Below are positions 43,526 to 54,084 of a DNA stretch of 64,000 bases, one piece after another. The notes beneath the pieces are model-generated. The model did no database searches and was not told the origin of the DNA. It saw only the letters and a program-made list of their open reading frames with translations. Made by a program: the position numbers and the translations under genes. Numbering within the stretch: the stretch's first letter is position 1; the number at the start of each line of letters is the position of its first letter. Location of the stretch: assembly GCF_037198315.1 (NCBI RefSeq), contig NZ_CP144913.1, forward strand, positions 1,116,001-1,180,000, written 5' to 3'. The DNA is from Janibacter sp. A1S7. Its GTDB lineage: Bacteria > Actinomycetota > Actinomycetes > Actinomycetales > Dermatophilaceae.

Positions 43526-43544
43526 TCTGCTGACTGAATGAGCA

Positions 43545-43589
43545 GGAGGGCGGCACCTATGGTGCCGCCCTCCCTGCTTTTCTGTCTTC
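43545..43589 (+). terminator. Intrinsic terminator of nrdJ
   Basis: 13-bp perfect stem (43545-43557 with 43561-43573), loop TAT, then a T-rich run TTTTCTGTCTTCT. It is the clearest Rho-independent terminator in the window and marks the left edge of the accessory region. Confidence 0.88.
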
Positions 43590-43616
43590 TCGTGCCAGTA
43601 AGTCGCCCGGTTGTCG

Positions 43617-43632
43617 CACTAACCATCTAGTG
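43617..43632. promoter_or_regulatory. Palindrome upstream of the PD-(D/E)XK-like gene
   Basis: CACTA-ACCATC-TAGTG lies 34 nt before the gene start, in the expected promoter zone. Its half-sites equal those of NrdR box 1, but the spacer is 2 nt longer. It may be an operator of unknown regulator. Confidence 0.35.
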
Positions 43633-43665
43633 TCCCTCTTACGAGCGATTGTCGGGGAGGGCATC

Positions 43666-45081
43666 ATGAGCGAAGAGACTTGGCACCAGGCACGACTCAT
43701 CCCTACGTCAGGGATTAATGGCGCAGAAGAGCAAGAACGGCGGGCGACATCTGCGCTCCTTGCGGTGATGTCGTCTGTCCGTGAGTTCGGTCAGACCGTC
43801 ACCAAGCCGCTCGGTGCTCCCTCCGGGAAGGTCGAAACGTTCATCGAGGTCCCCTTCGAGCTGGGCGAGCAACGGCTCTTCCCCGATGGACTCATCCGGG
43901 TCTCGCGGGGGAAGACGAACTGGACGGCCTTGGTTGAGGTGAAAACGGGAAACAATGACCTAGCCACTGAGCAGTTGGAGAACTATCTCGATATTGCCCG
44001 CGAGCAGGGCTACGACGCGGTGGTGACGATCTCGAACCAGATCCCTGCGATCGCCGGGCAGCATCCGACGAAGGTCGATGGCCGCAAGTTGCGGAAGGTC
44101 GCGCTCCACCACTTGTCGTGGTCGAGAATCCTCTGCGACGCAGTCATGCAGAAGGAATACCGCGGAGTGGCAGATCCAGACCAGGCATGGATCCTCGGAG
44201 AACTAATTAGGTACCTCGAACACCCAAAGTCCGGAGCCCTGGAGTTTAACGATATGGGTGGCAGCTGGGTGGCGGTACGACAGGCGGTATCGGCTGGGAC
44301 GTTACGAGCCACAGACAAGGGAGTCCCGGATGTAGTTGCGCGATGGGACGCTCTGCTGCGCTTCGTGAGTCTCCAGTTGGGACGGGATCTGGGCGAAGAA
44401 GTAACGCCTGTTCTGTCGCGCAAGGAGCAGAGGGACCCGGCGCTTCGCGCTCAGAACGTGTCGAACACACTCGCGAGCGACTCTGTCCTCATGGGCTCCA
44501 TTCGAATTCCTAACGCCGCGGGCCCCATCGTTGTGACTGCAGATTTGCGAGCGGGACAGATTACGTGCCATGTGGATATTTCGGCGCCTGGTGCAGGTCG
44601 CCCTGCGACGCGTGTGAAGTGGCTGACTCGGCAGATCCCAGACGCCCGCGAATCTCTCCGTCTCGAAGCGTTCGTCGCCCGGTCCAGAGGGGCAAGTGCC
44701 GCAGAACTGCTGGGCGCGGTCCGTCAGAAGCCTGACGCTCTGATTCAGGATCCAGCAAAGGAACTCAAGACTTTTAGAGTTGCCATGACCGTAGTGATGG
44801 GATCGAAGCGAGGTCGGGGCCGGGGCGCCTTCATCGACACAGTGCTGGACGCAGTCAACGAGTTCTATCGGGAAGTCTTGCAGTTCCTGAAAGTGTGGCG
44901 GGCATCGCCCCCCAAGATGCGCGAACTTCCAGACGCTAGTTTTGAGCCTGATCGACTTTCGTCAACAGCGTTGTCTTCACAGGACGGCACAGACGATGTG
45001 CGTTCTCCTGTCTCCGGCCGACCAGCGCCTGAGGCGCCAGCCGACGCCAACAACTACGAAGCAGCCGCCGCGGAGATGTAG
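43666..45081 (+). CDS. PD-(D/E)XK nuclease-like protein of unknown function
   Basis: 471 aa. Residues about 50-135 look like a PD-(D/E)XK fold: FPDG with Asp74, 16 residues, then VEVK (Glu91, Lys93) and a following helix QLENYLDIAREQGYDAVV. The rest is not recognised, and the tail is disordered. The ATG at 43666 follows GGGGAGGG; an in-frame start 36 nt upstream lacks a ribosome binding site. The DNA is more A/T-rich than nearby housekeeping genes. Its 3' end overlaps the convergent helicase gene by 28 bp. It may belong to the same defence- or damage-related module; enzymatic activity is inference. Confidence 0.75.
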   Translation: MSEETWHQARLIPTSGINGAEEQERRATSALLAVMSSVREFGQTVTKPLGAPSGKVETFIEVPFELGEQRLFPDGLIRVSRGKTNWTALVEVKTGNNDLATEQLENYLDIAREQGYDAVVTISNQIPAIAGQHPTKVDGRKLRKVALHHLSWSRILCDAVMQKEYRGVADPDQAWILGELIRYLEHPKSGALEFNDMGGSWVAVRQAVSAGTLRATDKGVPDVVARWDALLRFVSLQLGRDLGEEVTPVLSRKEQRDPALRAQNVSNTLASDSVLMGSIRIPNAAGPIVVTADLRAGQITCHVDISAPGAGRPATRVKWLTRQIPDARESLRLEAFVARSRGASAAELLGAVRQKPDALIQDPAKELKTFRVAMTVVMGSKRGRGRGAFIDTVLDAVNEFYREVLQFLKVWRASPPKMRELPDASFEPDRLSSTALSSQDGTDDVRSPVSGRPAPEAPADANNYEAAAAEM

Positions 45082-48000
45082 ATGCTCTGGGGGAGGGGGT
45101 GGTGCAGACGCCAGGTGAAGGCGATCGGACGCTCTCCCTTGTGGCTGACGTACGACGCCGGCCCGAGGAAGACGTACGGTGCACCGCCACCGAAGTCGTT
45201 GACCTTGCTGTCACGCGCGAACAGCAAGATGTGGGACCCCTGAACTTCGTGATTGATGTACCGCTGCCCGGTGGCAGATCGGACTGATGTGCTGGATTGC
45301 GACTCCCAGTGGAACAGCTCGGGGCTGATCGCGTAGTCCCGGTACATCGTCGTCGGCGAGTAGTCAGCCTCGGACTTCTTGAAGGTGACGAAGAAGGCGT
45401 CAGAGTCGATCTCCTGCGAGTGCAGGACACCTTCTCGGAAGCTGTTGGGCGCACGGCCACCGAGTGAGGCGTAGCGGAGCGCCGCGACGGCCTCCTCCCG
45501 CGTGTAGCGAGCGTGCACCTGCAGTGGCAGGGTGCCGAGGCCGCCGGTGAGAGGCCGCGTGACGTGAGTGGCGTGGTCCAGGCCGAGCTGAATGACCTGG
45601 CGAAGGTCCTCGCGAACGTTGGGCTCATCCCGTAGAGCACGAAGTCCGGCGTCATAAGTCGTGAAGCCTCCGCCGCCTGTCCACAGCGAGAAGAAGAGCA
45701 TCCGGCCGAACTCCTGCATACGTGGGCTGGCTGCACCGTAGGTAGGCGCCTCCTCGCTGAGCCACGTGAGGTACGCCTGCGCTCGCTCGGGATCGTCCAC
45801 GTGGGAGAAGGCTCGAGCACGCTTTAAGAGCAACGGTTCCTGCGGACCTTCTGGCGCCGTTGGCAGGTGCGCATCGCGTCGTAGGCGTGTCCAGGAGCGG
45901 TCGGCTCGGATGATGTCCGCAAGGTCCACTCCGGTCTCGTGGAGGTAGGTCGCGAGACTGTCCGTGGGGTGGTTGCGCAACTCGGTTGCCAGGACCTTCC
46001 ATCGAGTCGCTAGCTGGCCCTTGAGGTTGTCGAGAACGACGTCCTGGGTCTGCTCATCGAGGATGATCTGACAACCGGACGGCAAGAAGGGAAAGCCCTT
46101 GTCGACCTGGTCGGCCAGACCCTTCCTGGTGGTGCCGGTCAGGGCCCGGAACCGGTCAGCGAACCGGAATGACTTGTTCTGGTGACCAACGAAGTCCAGG
46201 GCCGTAAGCACCGCTTTGTCATCCGCTCTGCGCAGTCCGCGCCCGAGTTGCTGCAAGAAGATCGTCGCTGACTCGGTGGGGCGGAGGAAAAGGACAGTGT
46301 CGACGGATGGCACGTCGACCCCTTCGTTGAACATGTCGACGGTGAAGACGACCGCTACCCGTCCTGCGCGCAGGTCCGAAAGTGCCTGCGCGCGATCGGC
46401 GCTGCCGGGATGACTCGTCACAGCCACCGCGGCAATGCCCGCGTTGGTGAACACTCTCGACATGTACTCGGCGTGTGCGACCGACACGCAGAACCCGAGC
46501 GCCTTCATGCGGCGAGGAGAGGTGATCTTGTCGCGGATTGCGCGCAGAATCAGCGCAGCGCGCGCGTCGTTGCCGGTGTAGACCTTCTCCAGCTCATCCG
46601 TGTCGTACGCACCTCGCTTCCAGGTGATGGCGCTGAGGTCGGTACCGTCCGAGATGCCGAAGTAGTGGAAGGGAGACAGCAGCTCCGACGCCAACGCGTC
46701 CCACAGGCGAAGTTCAGCAGCGATACGGCCATCGAAGAACGTCTGAGCGACGTCGGTGCCGTCGGCTCGCTCGGGTGTAGCGGTCAACCCCAGCAACTCA
46801 GAGGGTTGGAGGTGCTCGAGGATGTTGCGGTAGGTCCGAGCCTGCGCGTGGTGAAACTCATCGATGACCACAACCTCGAAGTGGCCGGCCGGAATGTTGG
46901 TCACACCGTAGGAGTTGAGCGACTGCACCGACGCGAAGACATGCTCCCACCGCTCGGGCCGAGTCCCGCCGACATAGAGCTCGCCGAAGTCTTGATTGCG
47001 GAGTACTTCGCGGTACGTTCGCAGACTCTGCGTCAGGATCTCCTGACGATGAGCGACGAAGAGAAGTCGCGGCCATCGCCCGTCGCGCTGGTATAGACGT
47101 CGATAGTCCAGAGCCGCCAGCACGGTCTTGCCTGTGCCGGTAGCGGCGACGACAAGGTTGCGGTGACGATCATGAACGATACGTTCGACGTCGAGGGACT
47201 CGAGCATCTCGGCCTGATAGGGGAAGGGCTGGACGTCGAGCCCGGATATCGAAATCGTGACTTGGTCCGGCTTCGTGCCGCCTCCTGACGCGAGCGCCAG
47301 AGCGTCGTCGAGTCGGTCTCGGTCACGCTCCGGGTCGTAGTCTTCGAAGGAGGTGTCGTTCCAGTACGTCTCGAATGTCGCCTCGAACTTGTGCATAAGT
47401 GCAGGCGTCGCGACGGCAGAGAGTCGGACGTTCCACTCAACGCCATCGAGCAAAGCTGCGCGCGAGAGATTGGAGGAGCCGACGTACGCAGTGTTGAAGC
47501 CCGTTCGTCGATTGAACAACCAGGCCTTGGCATGGAGCCGCGTGCGGAGTGAGTCGTACTGGATCTTCACCTGAGCGCCGAACTCGCTCACCAGACGATC
47601 CAACGCCTGGCGTTCAGTTGCTCCCATGTAGGTCGTGGTGATGACTCGCAGGGGGATCCCGCGATCACGCAATCGACGAAGCTGAGGTTCGAGCAGGCGG
47701 AGGCCGTACCACTTCACGAAGGCGATGAGCAGATCGACGGAGTCGGCAGTCTCCAGCTCGGCCCGCAGTTCAGAGCCCAGACTTGGTTCACCGATCGAGT
47801 TCGTCAGGAGCGCCGCATCGGACAAGGGAGTGGACGGACGGTCTGGCGCGACGTACTCCACTCCGGGTCCAGCCGGTCGGTGAAGGAAATGGAGCTGACG
47901 GCTACCGGATCCCAACAGGTCGGTCTCATTCCCTAGTTGAGCCAGGATGCGATTGACGAGGGCACGCCTGTGTACCGGGTCCTTCTCATCTCGCAGCGCG

Positions 48001-48167
48001 CGCTCGACAGCATGACGCACGTGACGTGCCAAAACGTGTGGTTCGTCGCCACTGTCCACGTCGTAGATCAGGCGAGTGTCGTCGGGTCGTTCAGCGAGCA
48101 GCTTCTCGAGTCGAGCAGTCAGCAGGGACTCGTACATGCCCTCAGGGAGCGCGTCATTGAACGTCAC
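45054..48167 (-). CDS. PLD-nuclease / SF2 helicase / DUF3427 protein
   Basis: 1037 aa. The phospholipase-D-type nuclease domain (about residues 120-270) has one HKD set: LHAKAWLF (His212, Lys214) and GSSNLS at 230. The SF2 helicase (about 310-660) has Walker A ATGTGKT 342-348, DEFH 436-439, LTATPER 461-467 and motif VI QQLGRGLRR 639-647. The C-terminal DUF3427 spans about 770-1030. Such PLD-helicase-DUF3427 proteins are often found in defence islands. Start GTG 48167 overlaps the Nudix stop (GTGA), so the two are translationally coupled; the longer open frame upstream is Nudix out of frame. Confidence 0.88.
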   Translation of the reverse strand: MTFNDALPEGMYESLLTARLEKLLAERPDDTRLIYDVDSGDEPHVLARHVRHAVERALRDEKDPVHRRALVNRILAQLGNETDLLGSGSRQLHFLHRPAGPGVEYVAPDRPSTPLSDAALLTNSIGEPSLGSELRAELETADSVDLLIAFVKWYGLRLLEPQLRRLRDRGIPLRVITTTYMGATERQALDRLVSEFGAQVKIQYDSLRTRLHAKAWLFNRRTGFNTAYVGSSNLSRAALLDGVEWNVRLSAVATPALMHKFEATFETYWNDTSFEDYDPERDRDRLDDALALASGGGTKPDQVTISISGLDVQPFPYQAEMLESLDVERIVHDRHRNLVVAATGTGKTVLAALDYRRLYQRDGRWPRLLFVAHRQEILTQSLRTYREVLRNQDFGELYVGGTRPERWEHVFASVQSLNSYGVTNIPAGHFEVVVIDEFHHAQARTYRNILEHLQPSELLGLTATPERADGTDVAQTFFDGRIAAELRLWDALASELLSPFHYFGISDGTDLSAITWKRGAYDTDELEKVYTGNDARAALILRAIRDKITSPRRMKALGFCVSVAHAEYMSRVFTNAGIAAVAVTSHPGSADRAQALSDLRAGRVAVVFTVDMFNEGVDVPSVDTVLFLRPTESATIFLQQLGRGLRRADDKAVLTALDFVGHQNKSFRFADRFRALTGTTRKGLADQVDKGFPFLPSGCQIILDEQTQDVVLDNLKGQLATRWKVLATELRNHPTDSLATYLHETGVDLADIIRADRSWTRLRRDAHLPTAPEGPQEPLLLKRARAFSHVDDPERAQAYLTWLSEEAPTYGAASPRMQEFGRMLFFSLWTGGGGFTTYDAGLRALRDEPNVREDLRQVIQLGLDHATHVTRPLTGGLGTLPLQVHARYTREEAVAALRYASLGGRAPNSFREGVLHSQEIDSDAFFVTFKKSEADYSPTTMYRDYAISPELFHWESQSSTSVRSATGQRYINHEVQGSHILLFARDSKVNDFGGGAPYVFLGPASYVSHKGERPIAFTWRLHHPLPQSIYISAAAAS

Positions 48168-48613
48168 GGGTGGAGCTTGCCAGTGACAGGGGACATCCCG
48201 CCGATGGTCGCCGTGATTCGATATACGTACGTCGCCTGAATCAGTTGGACCGCCGGGATATCCGCTGGTGCCCAATCGAGTTGCGACAGCGCTGCTGCTG
48301 GCAGCCACCGCACCGCTTGGTGCTCAGTGAGCTCAGGCTCGCCATTCAGGAGTTGGCAGTAGAAGGTCGTCAGCGTGATCGTTGCGAAGTCGTACTCATG
48401 CTGCGTCGTCGTGATCCGGTCACCGACCGAGATCTGACAACCCAACTCCTCGGTGACCTCACGCTCGAGTGCCTCTGCTGGCGTTTCGTCGGTCTCGACC
48501 TTCCCACCAGGAAACTCCCACAATCCAGCGAGGGGACCGGTTGCTCGCTGGGCGCACAGGATCCGGTGATCAGAGACGATGACCGCACCAACCACGTCGA
48601 TTGACTTCTTCAT
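48164..48613 (-). CDS. Nudix hydrolase (MutT-like)
   Basis: 149 aa. A complete Nudix box runs from GGKVETDETPAEA through REVTEELG (GX5EX7REUXEEXGU, about residues 36-58), with an N-terminal VVGAVIVSDHRILCAQR strand as in 8-oxo-dGTP diphosphatases. It may clean oxidised or modified nucleotides, or make/degrade a nucleotide signal for the downstream helicase. First gene of a two-gene operon. The ribosome binding site GAAGGGA precedes the ATG. Confidence 0.9.
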   Translation of the reverse strand: MKKSIDVVGAVIVSDHRILCAQRATGPLAGLWEFPGGKVETDETPAEALEREVTEELGCQISVGDRITTTQHEYDFATITLTTFYCQLLNGEPELTEHQAVRWLPAAALSQLDWAPADIPAVQLIQATYVYRITATIGGMSPVTGKLHP

Positions 48614-48761: not shown

Positions 48762-48872
48762 CAAGACCTCGTCTCCACGAGGCGGACGGCCGTCTCTCAC
48801 TCCCTCGCCGCAGTTGGCTCCACCCTGGTGCTCTGGACGATCCGACGCCACAGCGCTGTCAGTGGCCACTGC

Positions 48873-48878
48873 CATACT
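48873..48878 (+). promoter_or_regulatory. -10 hexamer of the HNH gene
   Basis: CATACT ends 7 nt before ATG 48886 and touches the first base of the LexA box, so LexA would cover the transcription start. Confidence 0.5.
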
Positions 48879-48893
48879 CGAACACATGTTCGA
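48878..48893. promoter_or_regulatory. Perfect LexA box over the start codon of the HNH gene
   Basis: TCGAACACATGTTCGA fits TCGAAC-N4-GTTCGA exactly. The ATG at 48886-48888 lies inside it, and the second half-site encodes the Phe-Asp of the protein start Met-Phe-Asp. Confidence 0.88.
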
Positions 48894-50556
48894 CGAAGAG
48901 CTGACCATGGTGGAAGAGTCCTTCCAAGGACTGGGCAACGCCCGCAAGAGGGTGAGCGCGCGAGGCGGGCGAGCCGACGAGCAGACGCTGACGCAGGTCC
49001 TCGAGACCACGGAGCGACTCAGACGGGCGGCCGATGCCCTGGAGCTGTCGGTGATTGGGCACGCCGTGCGCTGGGGTGAGGAGCGCGGTCCGGACGGGAT
49101 CCACCGCGCCGTCCACCTCCGCGAGGGCGAGGTCGCCGAGTTTGCTGTCGAAGCCGTCGGAGTCACCTTGCGAGCCAGCACGTACGAGGCCCGAGATCGG
49201 TGCGACCTCGCCGCCCGCGCAGTCACCGACCTGCACGAGCTCGCCGACCTGATCGCCGACGGTCGGCTGCGGGAGCGGGCCATGGGCGTCGTCGCCAAGG
49301 AGACCCGCCTGGCCGAGGCACATGCCGTCGCGGCCGTGGTCGAGCACCTCCTCGCCCCGATGCGCGGCCGGCCCGAGTCGATCCGCATCGTCGAGCTGGA
49401 GGAGCGCGAGATCCGCAAGGCCTGCCGTCGCATCCTCCAGCGGGCCCAGCCCGACCTGCTGGACGGCGAGAGCAGGCGCAACCGCCGCGAGCAGCTGAAT
49501 GCCCGCTTCAGCGCCGGGCCAGTCGGCACCACCGACCTCCACGCGACCCTCCCCAGTGAGGTCGGACTGGCGCTCAAGTGCGCCATCGACGAGGCCGCCA
49601 CGCAGCGCCTCGTGGACGAGCCCGACCTCACCGCCGGAGCGGCCCGCGCGTGGGGCCTGGCCGACCTCGCCCTGCGCGGCGTTGAGCTCAGCACTCAGGT
49701 CAGGATCGGCATCCCCGTCATCACCTCAGCGGCCTCCCGTCTCGCGTTCGCCCCCGACGAAGGGGGCGAAACTCCCCACCGGGACCACCCCGGGACGACG
49801 ATCGGTGAGGATCTCCACGGTCCCACCGCGCGCGAGGGGCGACTCGTCACCGGTGAGGGCGCTGATGCAGTCGATGTCCTCGCCGAGGAGTGGGCGGGAG
49901 ACGCCGTCACCTCCCAGGTCCCGGCAACGTTCGGCCCGGACGGGGCGCCGACCTGGATCAGTGGGTGCGACATCCCCGGCGTCGGCTACATCCCACCGGA
50001 CGCCGTGGCGGCCATCGTCAGCAACCTCGAGACGAGAGTCTCCCGGGCCCTCCTCGACGCCCGCACCGGAACCCTCGTCGAGACCTCGAACCCGCGCTAC
50101 GTCATCACCGACTCGATGCGCGAGTTCGTTGCCGCCCGCGACGAAGTCTGTCGCATGTGGGGCTGCAACCGGCGGGTCCGCGCGAGCGGGCTCGAGCACG
50201 GCGCCGACCTCGACCACGCCACCCCCTGGCCCGCTGGCGCCTCCACCCCGGCCAACCTCTCCGGGCTGTGCCGCCACCACCACCGGCTCAAGCACTCCGA
50301 CCGGTGGACCCACCGCCAGGGTGCGGACGGCACCTCCGAGTGGATCAGTCCGGGCGGTGTTGCGGCGATGACCTTCCCTGCCCAGTGGATCCACACGGAG
50401 GAGGATGAGGACTCGCCCCATTCAGAGGGGGCGAAGGAGAGCGGCGTTATCTGCGACCTCGACAAGGAGCACGCGCAGGCCTACGCGGCTCTGCGGTCGG
50501 AGAGTCTGGTCAGTATCGGGGGGCCGCAGGAGGCGTCGGCCGAGCCTCCCTTCTAA
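48886..50556 (+). CDS. DUF222 / HNH endonuclease (13E12-like family)
   Basis: 556 aa. The DUF222 helical domain spans about residues 1-330. A C-terminal HNH domain follows: CRMWGCNRRVRASGLEHGADLDHATPW then NLSGLCRHHHRLKH (about 420-475). This architecture equals the 13E12 repeat family of mycobacteria, several members of which are LexA-controlled. Here a perfect LexA box covers the start. ATG 48886 is preferred because a CATACT -10 lies 7 nt upstream; ATG 48907, with GAAGAG before it, is an alternative. Substrate unknown; possibly a damage-induced nuclease or a mobile-type endonuclease. Confidence 0.87.
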   Translation: MFDEELTMVEESFQGLGNARKRVSARGGRADEQTLTQVLETTERLRRAADALELSVIGHAVRWGEERGPDGIHRAVHLREGEVAEFAVEAVGVTLRASTYEARDRCDLAARAVTDLHELADLIADGRLRERAMGVVAKETRLAEAHAVAAVVEHLLAPMRGRPESIRIVELEEREIRKACRRILQRAQPDLLDGESRRNRREQLNARFSAGPVGTTDLHATLPSEVGLALKCAIDEAATQRLVDEPDLTAGAARAWGLADLALRGVELSTQVRIGIPVITSAASRLAFAPDEGGETPHRDHPGTTIGEDLHGPTAREGRLVTGEGADAVDVLAEEWAGDAVTSQVPATFGPDGAPTWISGCDIPGVGYIPPDAVAAIVSNLETRVSRALLDARTGTLVETSNPRYVITDSMREFVAARDEVCRMWGCNRRVRASGLEHGADLDHATPWPAGASTPANLSGLCRHHHRLKHSDRWTHRQGADGTSEWISPGGVAAMTFPAQWIHTEEDEDSPHSEGAKESGVICDLDKEHAQAYAALRSESLVSIGGPQEASAEPPF

Positions 50557-52371: not shown

Positions 52372-54084
52372 ATGGCACCGCAGCTGATTCCGCAGGACCC
52401 ACGCTTCACGACCGAGTCCGAGCAGGTGGTGTGGGAGCGGCTGCGTGACTCCCTTCGCCCCGAGGACACGCTCATCGCGAACCTGCGGCTGACCGACAGC
52501 CGCAAGGACCACGAGGCAGACCTCGTCCTCGTCCTGCCCGACGCGGGCGTCGTGGTCGTGGAGGTCAAGGGCGGCAAAGTGCGCATCGAGGACGGAGCGT
52601 GGAGCACCGTGCGTCGCGGCAAGCGGGTGCCGATTCACCCGGTCGACCAGGCGCGTGAGTCCCGATACGCCATCCGGCAGTACGTCGAGTCCGACCGGCG
52701 GTGGGCCGACTCGTCCCGGACCCGGGTTCGCTTCGCGCACGCGGTCGTCACCCCCTTCGTCGGTCTTGGTCAGGACTTCGACCTCCCCGACTGCCCCCGA
52801 TGGATGATCCACGACAAGCACGACATGCCGGACCTCGCTCGCCGGCTGGCCGACATCCCCATCGGACTGGAGAACAACCGTCGCATCCCGACCGACGACG
52901 ACTGCGCGGTCATCGTCGACATCCTCACCGCCCGCGGCACCGACGCCGTCCCGTCCGTCGCCGATGAGGCCGACGAGCGCCAGCACCGCGCCGACCGCCT
53001 CACCGAGGAGCAGAGCCAGATCCTGCGCGTCACCCGTCTGCTGCGTCGCGTCGAGATCCGCGGCGGGGCCGGCAGCGGCAAGACCGTCCTCGCCCTCACC
53101 CAGGCCCGCCAGCTGGCTGCCGGGCGCGACGGACGTCCCGCCGAGCGCGTCGCGCTGCTGTGCTACTCGATCGGCCTGGCCACCCACTTCACGCGCGAGG
53201 TCGCGACCTGGCCACACCGCCAGCGCCCCTCGTTCGTCGGGACCTTCGAGGACCTCGCCAACCTCTGGGGGGTGCCCTCCGGTTCCCGCGACGACCCGGA
53301 CTACTGGGAGGAGACCCTGCCGGCCCTGATGGCCGAGCGCGCGGCCGAGCTGGCGCCGGGGGAGCGCTACGACTCCTTCGTCGTCGACGAGGCGCAGGAC
53401 TTCGCCGAGTCGTGGTGGCGCCCGCTCATCGCTGCGCTCACCGACGAGAGCGACGGGGGCCTGTTCATCTACTCCGACGAGAACCAGCGCCTGTTCAACC
53501 GATTCGGCCGGCCCCCGGTCCCGCTCGTGCCCCTCGTCCTGGACCACAACCTGCGCAACACCAAGCAGATCGCGGAGGTCTTCAAACCGCTGGCGCCACT
53601 ACGGATGCGGCTCGAGGGCGGCGACGGCCCGGACGTCACCTTCGTCCCCACCAGCGCCGATGACGCGGTCGGCACAGCCGACGACCAGGTCGACCTGCTC
53701 ATCGACGAGGGGTGGGAGCCCGGGCACATCGCGCTGCTGACCACCGGCCACCGCCACCCCGTGCAGGTCGAGCGCCAGGAGGAGCTCGGGCAGGACGGGT
53801 ACTGGCGCACCTTCTGGGAGGACGAGGACGTCTTCTTCGGCCACGTGCTGGGGGCGAAGGGGATGGAGCGTCGCGTCGTCGTGCTGTCCGTCAACGAGGA
53901 CGGCACCCGGGAGCGCTTCCGTGAGCGACTCTACGTCGGCCTCTCCCGGGCCACCGACCGGCTCGTCGTCGTAGGTGACCCGGACACCATCACGCACGCC
54001 GGCGACGAGGTCTCGCGCATCCTCGTCGACGCCGCGAGTACAGTCGGCGCCACATCAGGGGACGAGGAGAGCAGGGGATCATGA
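52372..54084 (+). CDS. NERD-domain / UvrD-like helicase protein
   Basis: 570 aa. The N-terminal NERD nuclease-related domain (about 15-130) has DHEADLVLVLPDAGVVVVEVKGG, a PD-(D/E)XK-like core with Glu64 and Lys66. A superfamily-1 helicase follows: Walker A GGAGSGKT (231-238), VVDEAQDF near 341, FIYSDENQ, DHNLRNT near 386, GAKGMERRVVVLS and LYVGLSRATDRL near 520. It probably processes DNA in repair or defence. The stop overlaps the next gene by 4 bp (ATGA). Confidence 0.88.
   Translation: MAPQLIPQDPRFTTESEQVVWERLRDSLRPEDTLIANLRLTDSRKDHEADLVLVLPDAGVVVVEVKGGKVRIEDGAWSTVRRGKRVPIHPVDQARESRYAIRQYVESDRRWADSSRTRVRFAHAVVTPFVGLGQDFDLPDCPRWMIHDKHDMPDLARRLADIPIGLENNRRIPTDDDCAVIVDILTARGTDAVPSVADEADERQHRADRLTEEQSQILRVTRLLRRVEIRGGAGSGKTVLALTQARQLAAGRDGRPAERVALLCYSIGLATHFTREVATWPHRQRPSFVGTFEDLANLWGVPSGSRDDPDYWEETLPALMAERAAELAPGERYDSFVVDEAQDFAESWWRPLIAALTDESDGGLFIYSDENQRLFNRFGRPPVPLVPLVLDHNLRNTKQIAEVFKPLAPLRMRLEGGDGPDVTFVPTSADDAVGTADDQVDLLIDEGWEPGHIALLTTGHRHPVQVERQEELGQDGYWRTFWEDEDVFFGHVLGAKGMERRVVVLSVNEDGTRERFRERLYVGLSRATDRLVVVGDPDTITHAGDEVSRILVDAASTVGATSGDEESRGS

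Follow-up and report, generated by a model that had tools for sequence, protein, structure and literature searches.

A Nudix hydrolase beside a SauUSI-like restriction enzyme in Janibacter sp. A1S7 as a possible guard against modified dCTP

Introduction

To our knowledge, Type IV restriction enzymes come without a protecting methyltransferase, and their hosts are usually assumed simply not to methylate. A locus of Janibacter sp. A1S7 raises the question of what a nucleotide hydrolase may contribute beside such an enzyme. The stretch analysed (64,000 nucleotides; assembly GCF_037198315.1, contig NZ_CP144913.1, positions 1,116,001 to 1,180,000, forward strand; this whole stretch is called the window in the following) belongs to a genome of 3.36 Mb, which consists of a single contig. 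It contains the gene of a Nudix hydrolase of 149 amino acids (aa), followed on the same strand by the gene of a 1037-aa SauUSI-like protein, with which a gene for a 471-aa protein is read tail-to-tail. In a preliminary description of the sequence, the Nudix hydrolase had been regarded as strictly coupled to the large protein, and nucleotide clean-up or a nucleotide signal had been suggested as part of a defence mechanism. The comparisons reported here show a pairing of the Nudix hydrolase with SauUSI-like genes that is tight when judged by the Nudix genes but loose when judged by the restriction enzymes. The explanation which we prefer, and to which we give about an even chance on the basis of sequence comparison, is that the Nudix hydrolase removes 5-methyl-deoxycytidine triphosphate (5-methyl-dCTP) and would thereby guard the host DNA against the cell's own restriction enzyme.

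Results and Discussion

The SauUSI-like restriction enzyme

The PLD, SF2 helicase, DUF3427 and Nudix domains named in the preliminary description were all confirmed by Pfam scores. The 1037-aa protein matched PLDc_2 (37.5 bits), ResIII (117.7 bits), Helicase_C (44.6 bits) and DUF3427 (87.6 bits), which follow one another in one chain as PLD nuclease, SF2 ATPase and DUF3427/SRA, as the SauUSI type requires. Furthermore, the PADLOC profile mREase_IV gave 1230 bits, and a sequence match to SauUSI in the PDB (7clg, E 8.6e-78) covered residues 120-667. SauUSI 7clg was also the best fold match (E 5e-35, 949 columns), with a low TM score of 0.27-0.31 for a predicted model (mean pLDDT 69, pTM 0.43) in which the domains are loosely placed relative to each other. 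The HxK catalytic motif is kept (H212/K214, corresponding to H119/K121 of SauUSI), in agreement with the His212 named earlier, whereas the Walker A lysine, counted along the 1037-aa protein, is K347 and not residue 348.

SauUSI cleaves DNA containing 5-methylcytosine (m5C) and 5-hydroxymethylcytosine (hm5C) using ATP (PMC3874153, PMC7913695). Compared with the six residues of its SRA pocket that are named in PMC7913695, the window's enzyme has identical residues at D858, W868 and F841, while I842 is replaced by V, Y831 by V914 and M829 by E912; V occupies the position of SauUSI Y831 in 31/31 subfamily sequences of the set. The 1037-aa protein looks like a SauUSI-type modification-dependent restriction enzyme with predicted activity. 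This likeness, together with the restriction hotspot in which the gene lies (see below), bears out the formerly suggested defence role as a prediction.

The Nudix hydrolase

The 149-aa protein gave 71.5 bits with Pfam NUDIX, its Nudix box starting at residue 37, and 179 bits with the PADLOC profile PDC-S07 over residues 1-127. It is considered a relative of NudG and not an equivalog, because the NCBIfam NudG model scored 108.6 bits, under its cut-off of 156; the MutT model TIGR00586 gave 79.9 bits. Among solved structures, the protein is closest to 5x1x (a CTP pyrophosphohydrolase), NudG and MutT2. By eye, residues 1-126 of 5x1x are identical to the Nudix protein encoded beside SauUSI in S. 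aureus. Position 118, which we take to be the residue reading the cytosine, is Asp in NudG and in 20/20 Nudix partners of SauUSI-like enzymes in the set; it is Asn in E. coli MutT. According to the literature, the characterised relatives NudG and MutT2 prefer 5-methyl-dCTP, and for NudG kcat/Km values of 1,300 for 5-methyl-dCTP and 47 for CTP, in one unit for both, are given (PMC5158307). Membership of the NudG/MutT2 class of pyrimidine deoxynucleoside triphosphate pyrophosphatases, with a predicted preference for 5-methyl-dCTP, is supported as a prediction, and the same holds for the idea of nucleotide clean-up in the preliminary description.

The pairing seen from the Nudix side

In the 186 genomes of the family sample, 13 strict members of this Nudix family were found at 152 bits or more, the next score down being 106. 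A SauUSI-like gene borders nine of them (the window, L152, L153, L154, L155, L156, L157, L159 and L162), and the chance expectation for this adjacency is about 0.003, a rough value for which 3,300 genes per genome were assumed. In the sample of 396 Actinomycetota genomes, ten Nudix proteins reached 150 bits or more, and seven of them border a SauUSI-like gene, codirectionally in the window and L228 and convergently in L229, L230, L231, L233 and L234. Besides the window's, this sample comprised 36 Nudix proteins at 130 bits or more (nine at 150 or more, 27 below), some of them at contig ends. A SauUSI-like neighbour was seen for 0/27 of the weaker proteins (130-149 bits) and for 0/20 controls (98.8-106.2 bits), a comparison which leaves out 12 hits between the controls and 130 bits.

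Beside these pairs, the Nudix gene of genome G525 lies downstream, on one strand, of genes for a McrB-like AAA protein, McrC and a protein that weakly matches NucS_C; it is convergent with the gene of a protein showing a weak SRA match. The Nudix gene of G090 contains a stop in frame, and 18 kb away there is a restriction-gene fragment; at the strict Nudix gene of G212 no restriction neighbour was seen.

The adjacency itself is already published. PDC-S07 occurred with restriction-modification type IV in 23/23 S. suis cases (PMC12813430), and in Streptococcus homologues of MutT and of SauUSI are encoded side by side (PMC7641849, Fig. 9 legend). In the passages seen of the openly licensed literature searched, no function or guard role was stated for the Nudix/type IV adjacency.

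In the Nudix tree, the proteins of G000, G064 and G055 grouped with the Nudix protein of G173, a partner of SauUSI proper, and not with those of the congeners G054 and G061. The five congeners' restriction enzymes form a single clade, unlike their Nudix proteins. An exchange of partners is possible; the alignment is short and the support modest.

Recurrence beside other nucleases and fusion

Beyond Actinomycetota, ten plasmid records contained the Nudix gene at E<1e-20; nine were read, the tenth being a second L. amylolyticus record. Five of the nine adjoin SauUSI-like genes, with the enzyme gene in pieces in S. aureus and L. fermentum. One further Nudix gene stands before an MrcB_N-HNH gene, one overlaps an HNH gene (mREase_IV 76 bits), one precedes an Eco57I-type gene, and in a Selenomonas plasmid a DUF262 gene is the third downstream of it. 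The S. aureus record has the Nudix gene immediately upstream of SauUSI, and in Priestia it overlaps an mREase_IV-type HNH gene. A fusion was found on the Paenibacillus polymyxa plasmid pSb31l (L378, 3593-5056), where one chain of 487 aa comprises HNH (303-353) and Nudix (360-482); the fused Nudix domain reached 138 bits with the family profile versus 71-102 for controls.

All 76 loci on viral contigs were scanned for the enzyme, with one match (L307). A gene list was made for the first 14 loci, and among these the neighbours were scanned with Pfam at nine loci and with PADLOC at eight. The Nudix gene overlaps an HNH gene in L303, L308, L310 and L314 (mREase_IV 70-86 bits), with a weak SRA match of the HNH gene in L308 and a weak DUF3427 match in L303. 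In L307 a SauUSI-like gene is followed by the Nudix gene and then by an HNH_4 gene, and in L312 the Nudix gene has a gene for a Type I HsdR protein on one side and one that weakly matches HTH on the other.

MazG-like genes were detected just behind the restriction gene in L189 (8316-8636, PF12643) and, by annotation, in L190 (8437-8748) and L192 (6656-6985). DCTPP1, a relative of the MazG-like fold, which is unrelated to Nudix, also acts on 5-methyl-dCTP (PMC10742078); the MazG-like gene is perhaps a second pool-cleaning partner.

The pairing seen from the enzyme side

The strict coupling assumed in the preliminary description largely holds from the Nudix side, as shown above, and for SauUSI proper in Actinomycetota, where 6/6 genes (569 bits or more) in the 396 genomes and 3/3 in the family sample are accompanied by the Nudix gene. 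For the window's own subfamily it is rejected. Here, the Nudix gene was present at 2/80 loci of close relatives (the best 80 of 241, judged by the Nudix-box pattern only, four of them with fewer than 600 bases upstream) and at 1/31 in the 396-genome sample. Likewise the Nudix/DUF3427 adjacency, the conservation of which had been left to be checked, recurs across genomes when searched from the Nudix side and is rare in this subfamily. When 43 enzymes were placed in a tree, the window's genus (five rows) and G091 formed separate Nudix-bearing branches, and the rest of the subfamily in the set was without the gene; there were separate Nudix gains inside the subfamily. The SauUSI-proper rows of this tree were chosen mainly by their Nudix gene, and their 12/12 with Nudix is no frequency.

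Methyltransferases in the carriers

The family sample contains 64 genomes with a SauUSI-like gene. In 61 of them the enzyme belongs to the window's subfamily, counting G050, where it is in two pieces, G124, where it has one stop, and G028, where the identity is 40%; the other three are G031, G067 and G173. An m5C methyltransferase (PF00145) was found in 22/64 carriers versus 76/122 non-carriers (Fisher p 0.0004), and within the window's genus in 0/5 versus 8/11 (p 0.026), phylogeny being ignored in both tests. The window's genome gave no PF00145 match. A NudG-class enzyme in every carrier was also considered and set aside, as the counts showed a trend at most (50/64 versus 78/122, p 0.066).

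A guard against modified nucleotides

The guard function is proposed because of the enzyme family, the pairing, the recurrence beside unrelated modification-directed nucleases, the fusion, and the low frequency of m5C methyltransferases among carriers. Judged from its family and conserved residues, the restriction enzyme would use its C-terminal SRA domain to recognise a modified cytosine in DNA entering the cell, translocate with ATP and then cut through its PLD domain. By homology, the Nudix hydrolase would convert 5-methyl-dCTP, and perhaps 5-hydroxymethyl-dCTP, to the monophosphate. Such triphosphates may arise via salvage of shredded methylated invader DNA or through phage enzymes and, if polymerised, would put the target mark of the enzyme into the host chromosome. 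Cleaning of the pool would then take the part in self-protection that the methyltransferase plays in ordinary restriction-modification.

More tentatively, and with somewhat less than an even chance, this may be a general and overlooked principle of self-protection, in which modification-dependent restriction carries a nucleotide-pool sanitiser instead of a DNA methyltransferase, and in which one Nudix lineage has been repeatedly recruited as an antitoxin, as neighbour or fused domain, by SauUSI, HNH mREase_IV, McrBC and MrcB_N-HNH enzymes. If true, a pool-cleaning partner would explain how cells can tolerate Type IV enzymes while consuming and recycling methylated DNA, PDC-S07 would gain a function, and deletion of the Nudix gene would offer an easy handle on autoimmunity by modification-dependent restriction.

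Several observations weigh against a guard function. Of the 64 carriers, 55 are without the partner Nudix and nine possess it, and 14 are without both this gene and a MutT2-like gene (E<1e-20; 18 at 1e-22). Since most relatives in the window's subfamily lack the partner, a Nudix guard is not obligatory. On plasmids, 3/13 SauUSI-like loci have the Nudix gene (ten of 23 records taken from the enzyme side, together with H25, H27 and H28, which are the records of H3, H1 and H4; H11, H15-H17, H23 and H29-H33 lie outside this sample), and the ten without it include L298, which is near SauUSI proper by profile score. Similarly, 7/8 HNH loci taken from the enzyme side have no Nudix gene (8 of 59 records, three Priestia rows being judged from the listing). 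The strict Nudix genes L158, L160, L161 (where the contig ends 777 bases away) and L235 have no restriction neighbour, and L158 and L160 occupy the same site as L157, with the restriction gene absent. Moreover, a DUF4143/AAA_14 gene is convergent with the strict Nudix gene of G423 (L232), and other Nudix genes lie near an Eco57I-type gene (plasmid) and Type I genes (viral contig).

The paired genomes G031 and G173 also hold a PF00145 methyltransferase, and among carriers such a gene was found in 2/9 with Nudix versus 20/55 without (p 0.71), so that an influence of the Nudix gene on the methyltransferase content of carriers is rejected. Some PF00145 methyltransferases need not make the mark read by the enzyme. 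The modified base that is read is itself uncertain, because SauUSI Y831 and M829 are replaced in the window's enzyme; the target is likely a modified cytosine, and the exact mark may differ from that of SauUSI. Finally, Asp118 marks no special role of the restriction-linked Nudix proteins and was ruled out as their marker, because 20/20 MutT2-like controls carry the same residue.

The same homology and linkage would equally suit an offensive partner, which destroys the 5-hydroxymethyl- or 5-methyl-dCTP of a phage, so that the phage DNA is not fully modified and the phage is caught in a double bind with the enzyme. SauUSI cuts both m5C and hm5C DNA (PMC3874153), and no sequence feature separating this explanation from the guard function was found in the analysis. 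We consider it unlikely, as blocking the modification would be expected to spare the phage DNA from the adjacent nuclease. It is likewise improbable that the Nudix protein is a replaceable housekeeping pyrophosphatase for CTP/dCTP or oxidised nucleotides, which hitch-hikes in defence islands and perhaps substitutes for a missing MutT2. Strict Nudix and MutT2-like genes rarely share a genome (2/13 versus 115/173 of the 186 genomes, phylogeny ignored), a tendency to mutual exclusion that would fit this explanation, as would the Nudix copies persisting at the syntenic site L158/L160 and those beside Type I and Eco57I-like genes. However, the exclusion may reflect phylogeny at the genus level, and the repeated adjacency to unrelated modification-directed nucleases in multiple arrangements, as well as the fusion, is hard to explain by hitch-hiking.

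Many nucleotide signals are substrates of one or another Nudix enzyme, and a signal made or degraded by the Nudix hydrolase could gate the nuclease, as the preliminary description had suggested as one option. The option found no support, since no signal synthase occurred among the neighbours read or scanned, the protein is of the NudG/MutT2 class, and SauUSI is active alone in vivo and in vitro (PMC3874153); we regard it as very improbable. We give just as little credit to a three-gene system with the 471-aa protein as accessory nuclease, although its gene is tail-to-tail with the enzyme gene in the window as well as in J. corallicola, where the homologue is 72.6% identical. No match to the 471-aa protein was found anywhere in the genomes G055, G061 and G064, i.e. 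in 3/5 same-genus carriers of the pair, the enzymes of which are 90%, 77% and 94% identical to the window's, and in two of these carriers the pair sits at the window's site. Homologues occur in 30/186 genomes, beside a SauUSI-like gene in two of them (one copy, in G168, at a contig end), and five copies elsewhere had no neighbouring gene in common. A three-gene module was therefore ruled out, and the 471-aa gene is regarded as independent, because it is missing from congeners whose enzyme is 90-94% identical.

The 471-aa neighbour

The PD-(D/E)XK core proposed for the 471-aa protein in the preliminary description is likely: P73-D74, E91, K93 and Q103 are invariant in 22/22 aligned homologues, yet the Pfam and fold matches are weak. 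Pfam gave VRR_NUC only, below threshold, and Foldseek (model pLDDT 72.5) found MspJI as a weak best match (E 1.4e-3) beside weak matches to EcoT38I and BamHI. The protein is likely a restriction-like nuclease of this fold, judged from its motif and predicted model. At least 6,340 relatives were obtained in a protein search (E<0.001).

The locus and the site behind nrdJ

The three genes lie at the positions given in the preliminary description (Table 1), and the GTGA overlap and the terminator before the block were confirmed as well. The two convergent genes overlap by 28 bp. Translational coupling of Nudix and enzyme through the GTGA overlap is possible; the overlap is not conserved among congeners, and the distance from the Nudix stop to the start of the enzyme open reading frame (ORF) varies, from -7 in L154 and L155 to +53 and +55 in L152 and L153. 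The lower GC content noted for the block was found (0.60-0.65 versus 0.655-0.727 across 7.5 kb leftward), but it is about equally low at 50.5-52.5 kb. No structured RNA was detected at gathering thresholds between 40000 and 55000, and no sigma-70-like promoter at the pair, both sites found mapping to 50.7 kb.

Table 1. Features of the locus in the window
Feature	Position	Strand	Remarks
Intrinsic terminator behind nrdJ	43545-43573	+	13 pairs, 11 GC; left border of the variable site
471-aa ORF, PD-(D/E)XK-like	43666-45081	+	neighbour judged to be outside the module
SauUSI-like modification-dependent restriction enzyme, 1037 aa (predicted)	45054-48167	-	PLD nuclease, SF2 ATPase, coupler, SRA/DUF3427
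DUF3427/SRA target-recognition domain, residues 843-1031	45075-45641	-	D944, W954 = SauUSI D858, W868
SF2 helicase-like ATPase, residues 312-646	46230-47234	-	Walker A K347, DEFHH 436-440
PLD nuclease domain, Pfam PLDc_2, residues 162-269	47361-47684	-	H212, K214, N233, E244 invariant (18 aligned sequences)
GTGA, overlapping Nudix stop and enzyme GTG start	48164-48167	-	from the sequence
Nudix hydrolase, 149 aa	48164-48613	-	PADLOC PDC-S07 family, NudG/MutT2 class (Asp118)
580-aa ORF	48814-50556	+	no family in the Pfam scan
570-aa NERD + UvrD-like helicase	52372-54084	+	PADLOC RTasNERD-Hel 103 bits

The gap behind nrdJ (43526-48613) is a restriction/defence hotspot in the genus. The pair occupies it in the window's genome, G064, G055 and G054, with the 471-aa gene only in the window and G054. 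In ten other congeners the distance from nrdJ to the next shared gene is about 2 kb (G060, G063, G057, G059), about 1.3 kb (G052) or enlarged by inserts (G053, G056, G058, G062, G066), which contain a C5-cytosine methyltransferase in 5/5 cases and, as other cargo, DISARM-like DrmA, MzaC and DndH-like genes. In G061 the site is cut off by a contig end, and in G065 no match to nrdJ was obtained. Since the pair is present in some congeners and methyltransferase inserts in others, the site harbours genes that either make m5C or act against it.

To the right of the pair, the C-terminal stretch of the 580-aa protein appears to us HNH-like, of the 13E12/DUF222 type. The NERD/UvrD-like protein was matched in 9/13 congener loci around the nrdJ site, irrespective of whether the module was present or absent.

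Comparison with known systems

The window's enzyme resembles SauUSI (Type IV, PLD-SF2-SRA, 7clg) in its domain order, HxK motif, ATPase and the SRA residues D858, W868, F841 and, as V, I842. It differs in belonging to a separate deep clade, in about 90 additional N-terminal residues, as estimated from the alignment offset, and in V914 and E912 versus Y831 and M829. The same two-gene order is found on plasmids of L. curvatus, H. canadensis and L. plantarum, where a '(deoxy)nucleoside triphosphate pyrophosphohydrolase' is annotated next to a 'DEAD/DEAH box helicase', with a MazG-like gene (PF12643) added downstream in L. plantarum; in L. fermentum and P. aryabhattai a gene annotated 'nucleotide pyrophosphohydrolase' lies nearby. 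The Streptococcus homologues show the same adjacency as the window, but the passages considered of PMC7641849 assign it no function and do not connect it with McrBC, HNH nucleases or fusions.

E. coli NudG (Orf135) and mycobacterial MutT2 form the nearest characterised sequence class of the Nudix protein and share Asp118 with it. These are regarded as housekeeping genes, whereas the window's Nudix gene is restriction-linked and its product falls under the NudG equivalog cut-off. The high score with PDC-S07 places the protein in a family which is listed in PADLOC as a candidate phage defence of a single gene; here, in contrast, it is a recurrent partner of modification-directed nucleases.

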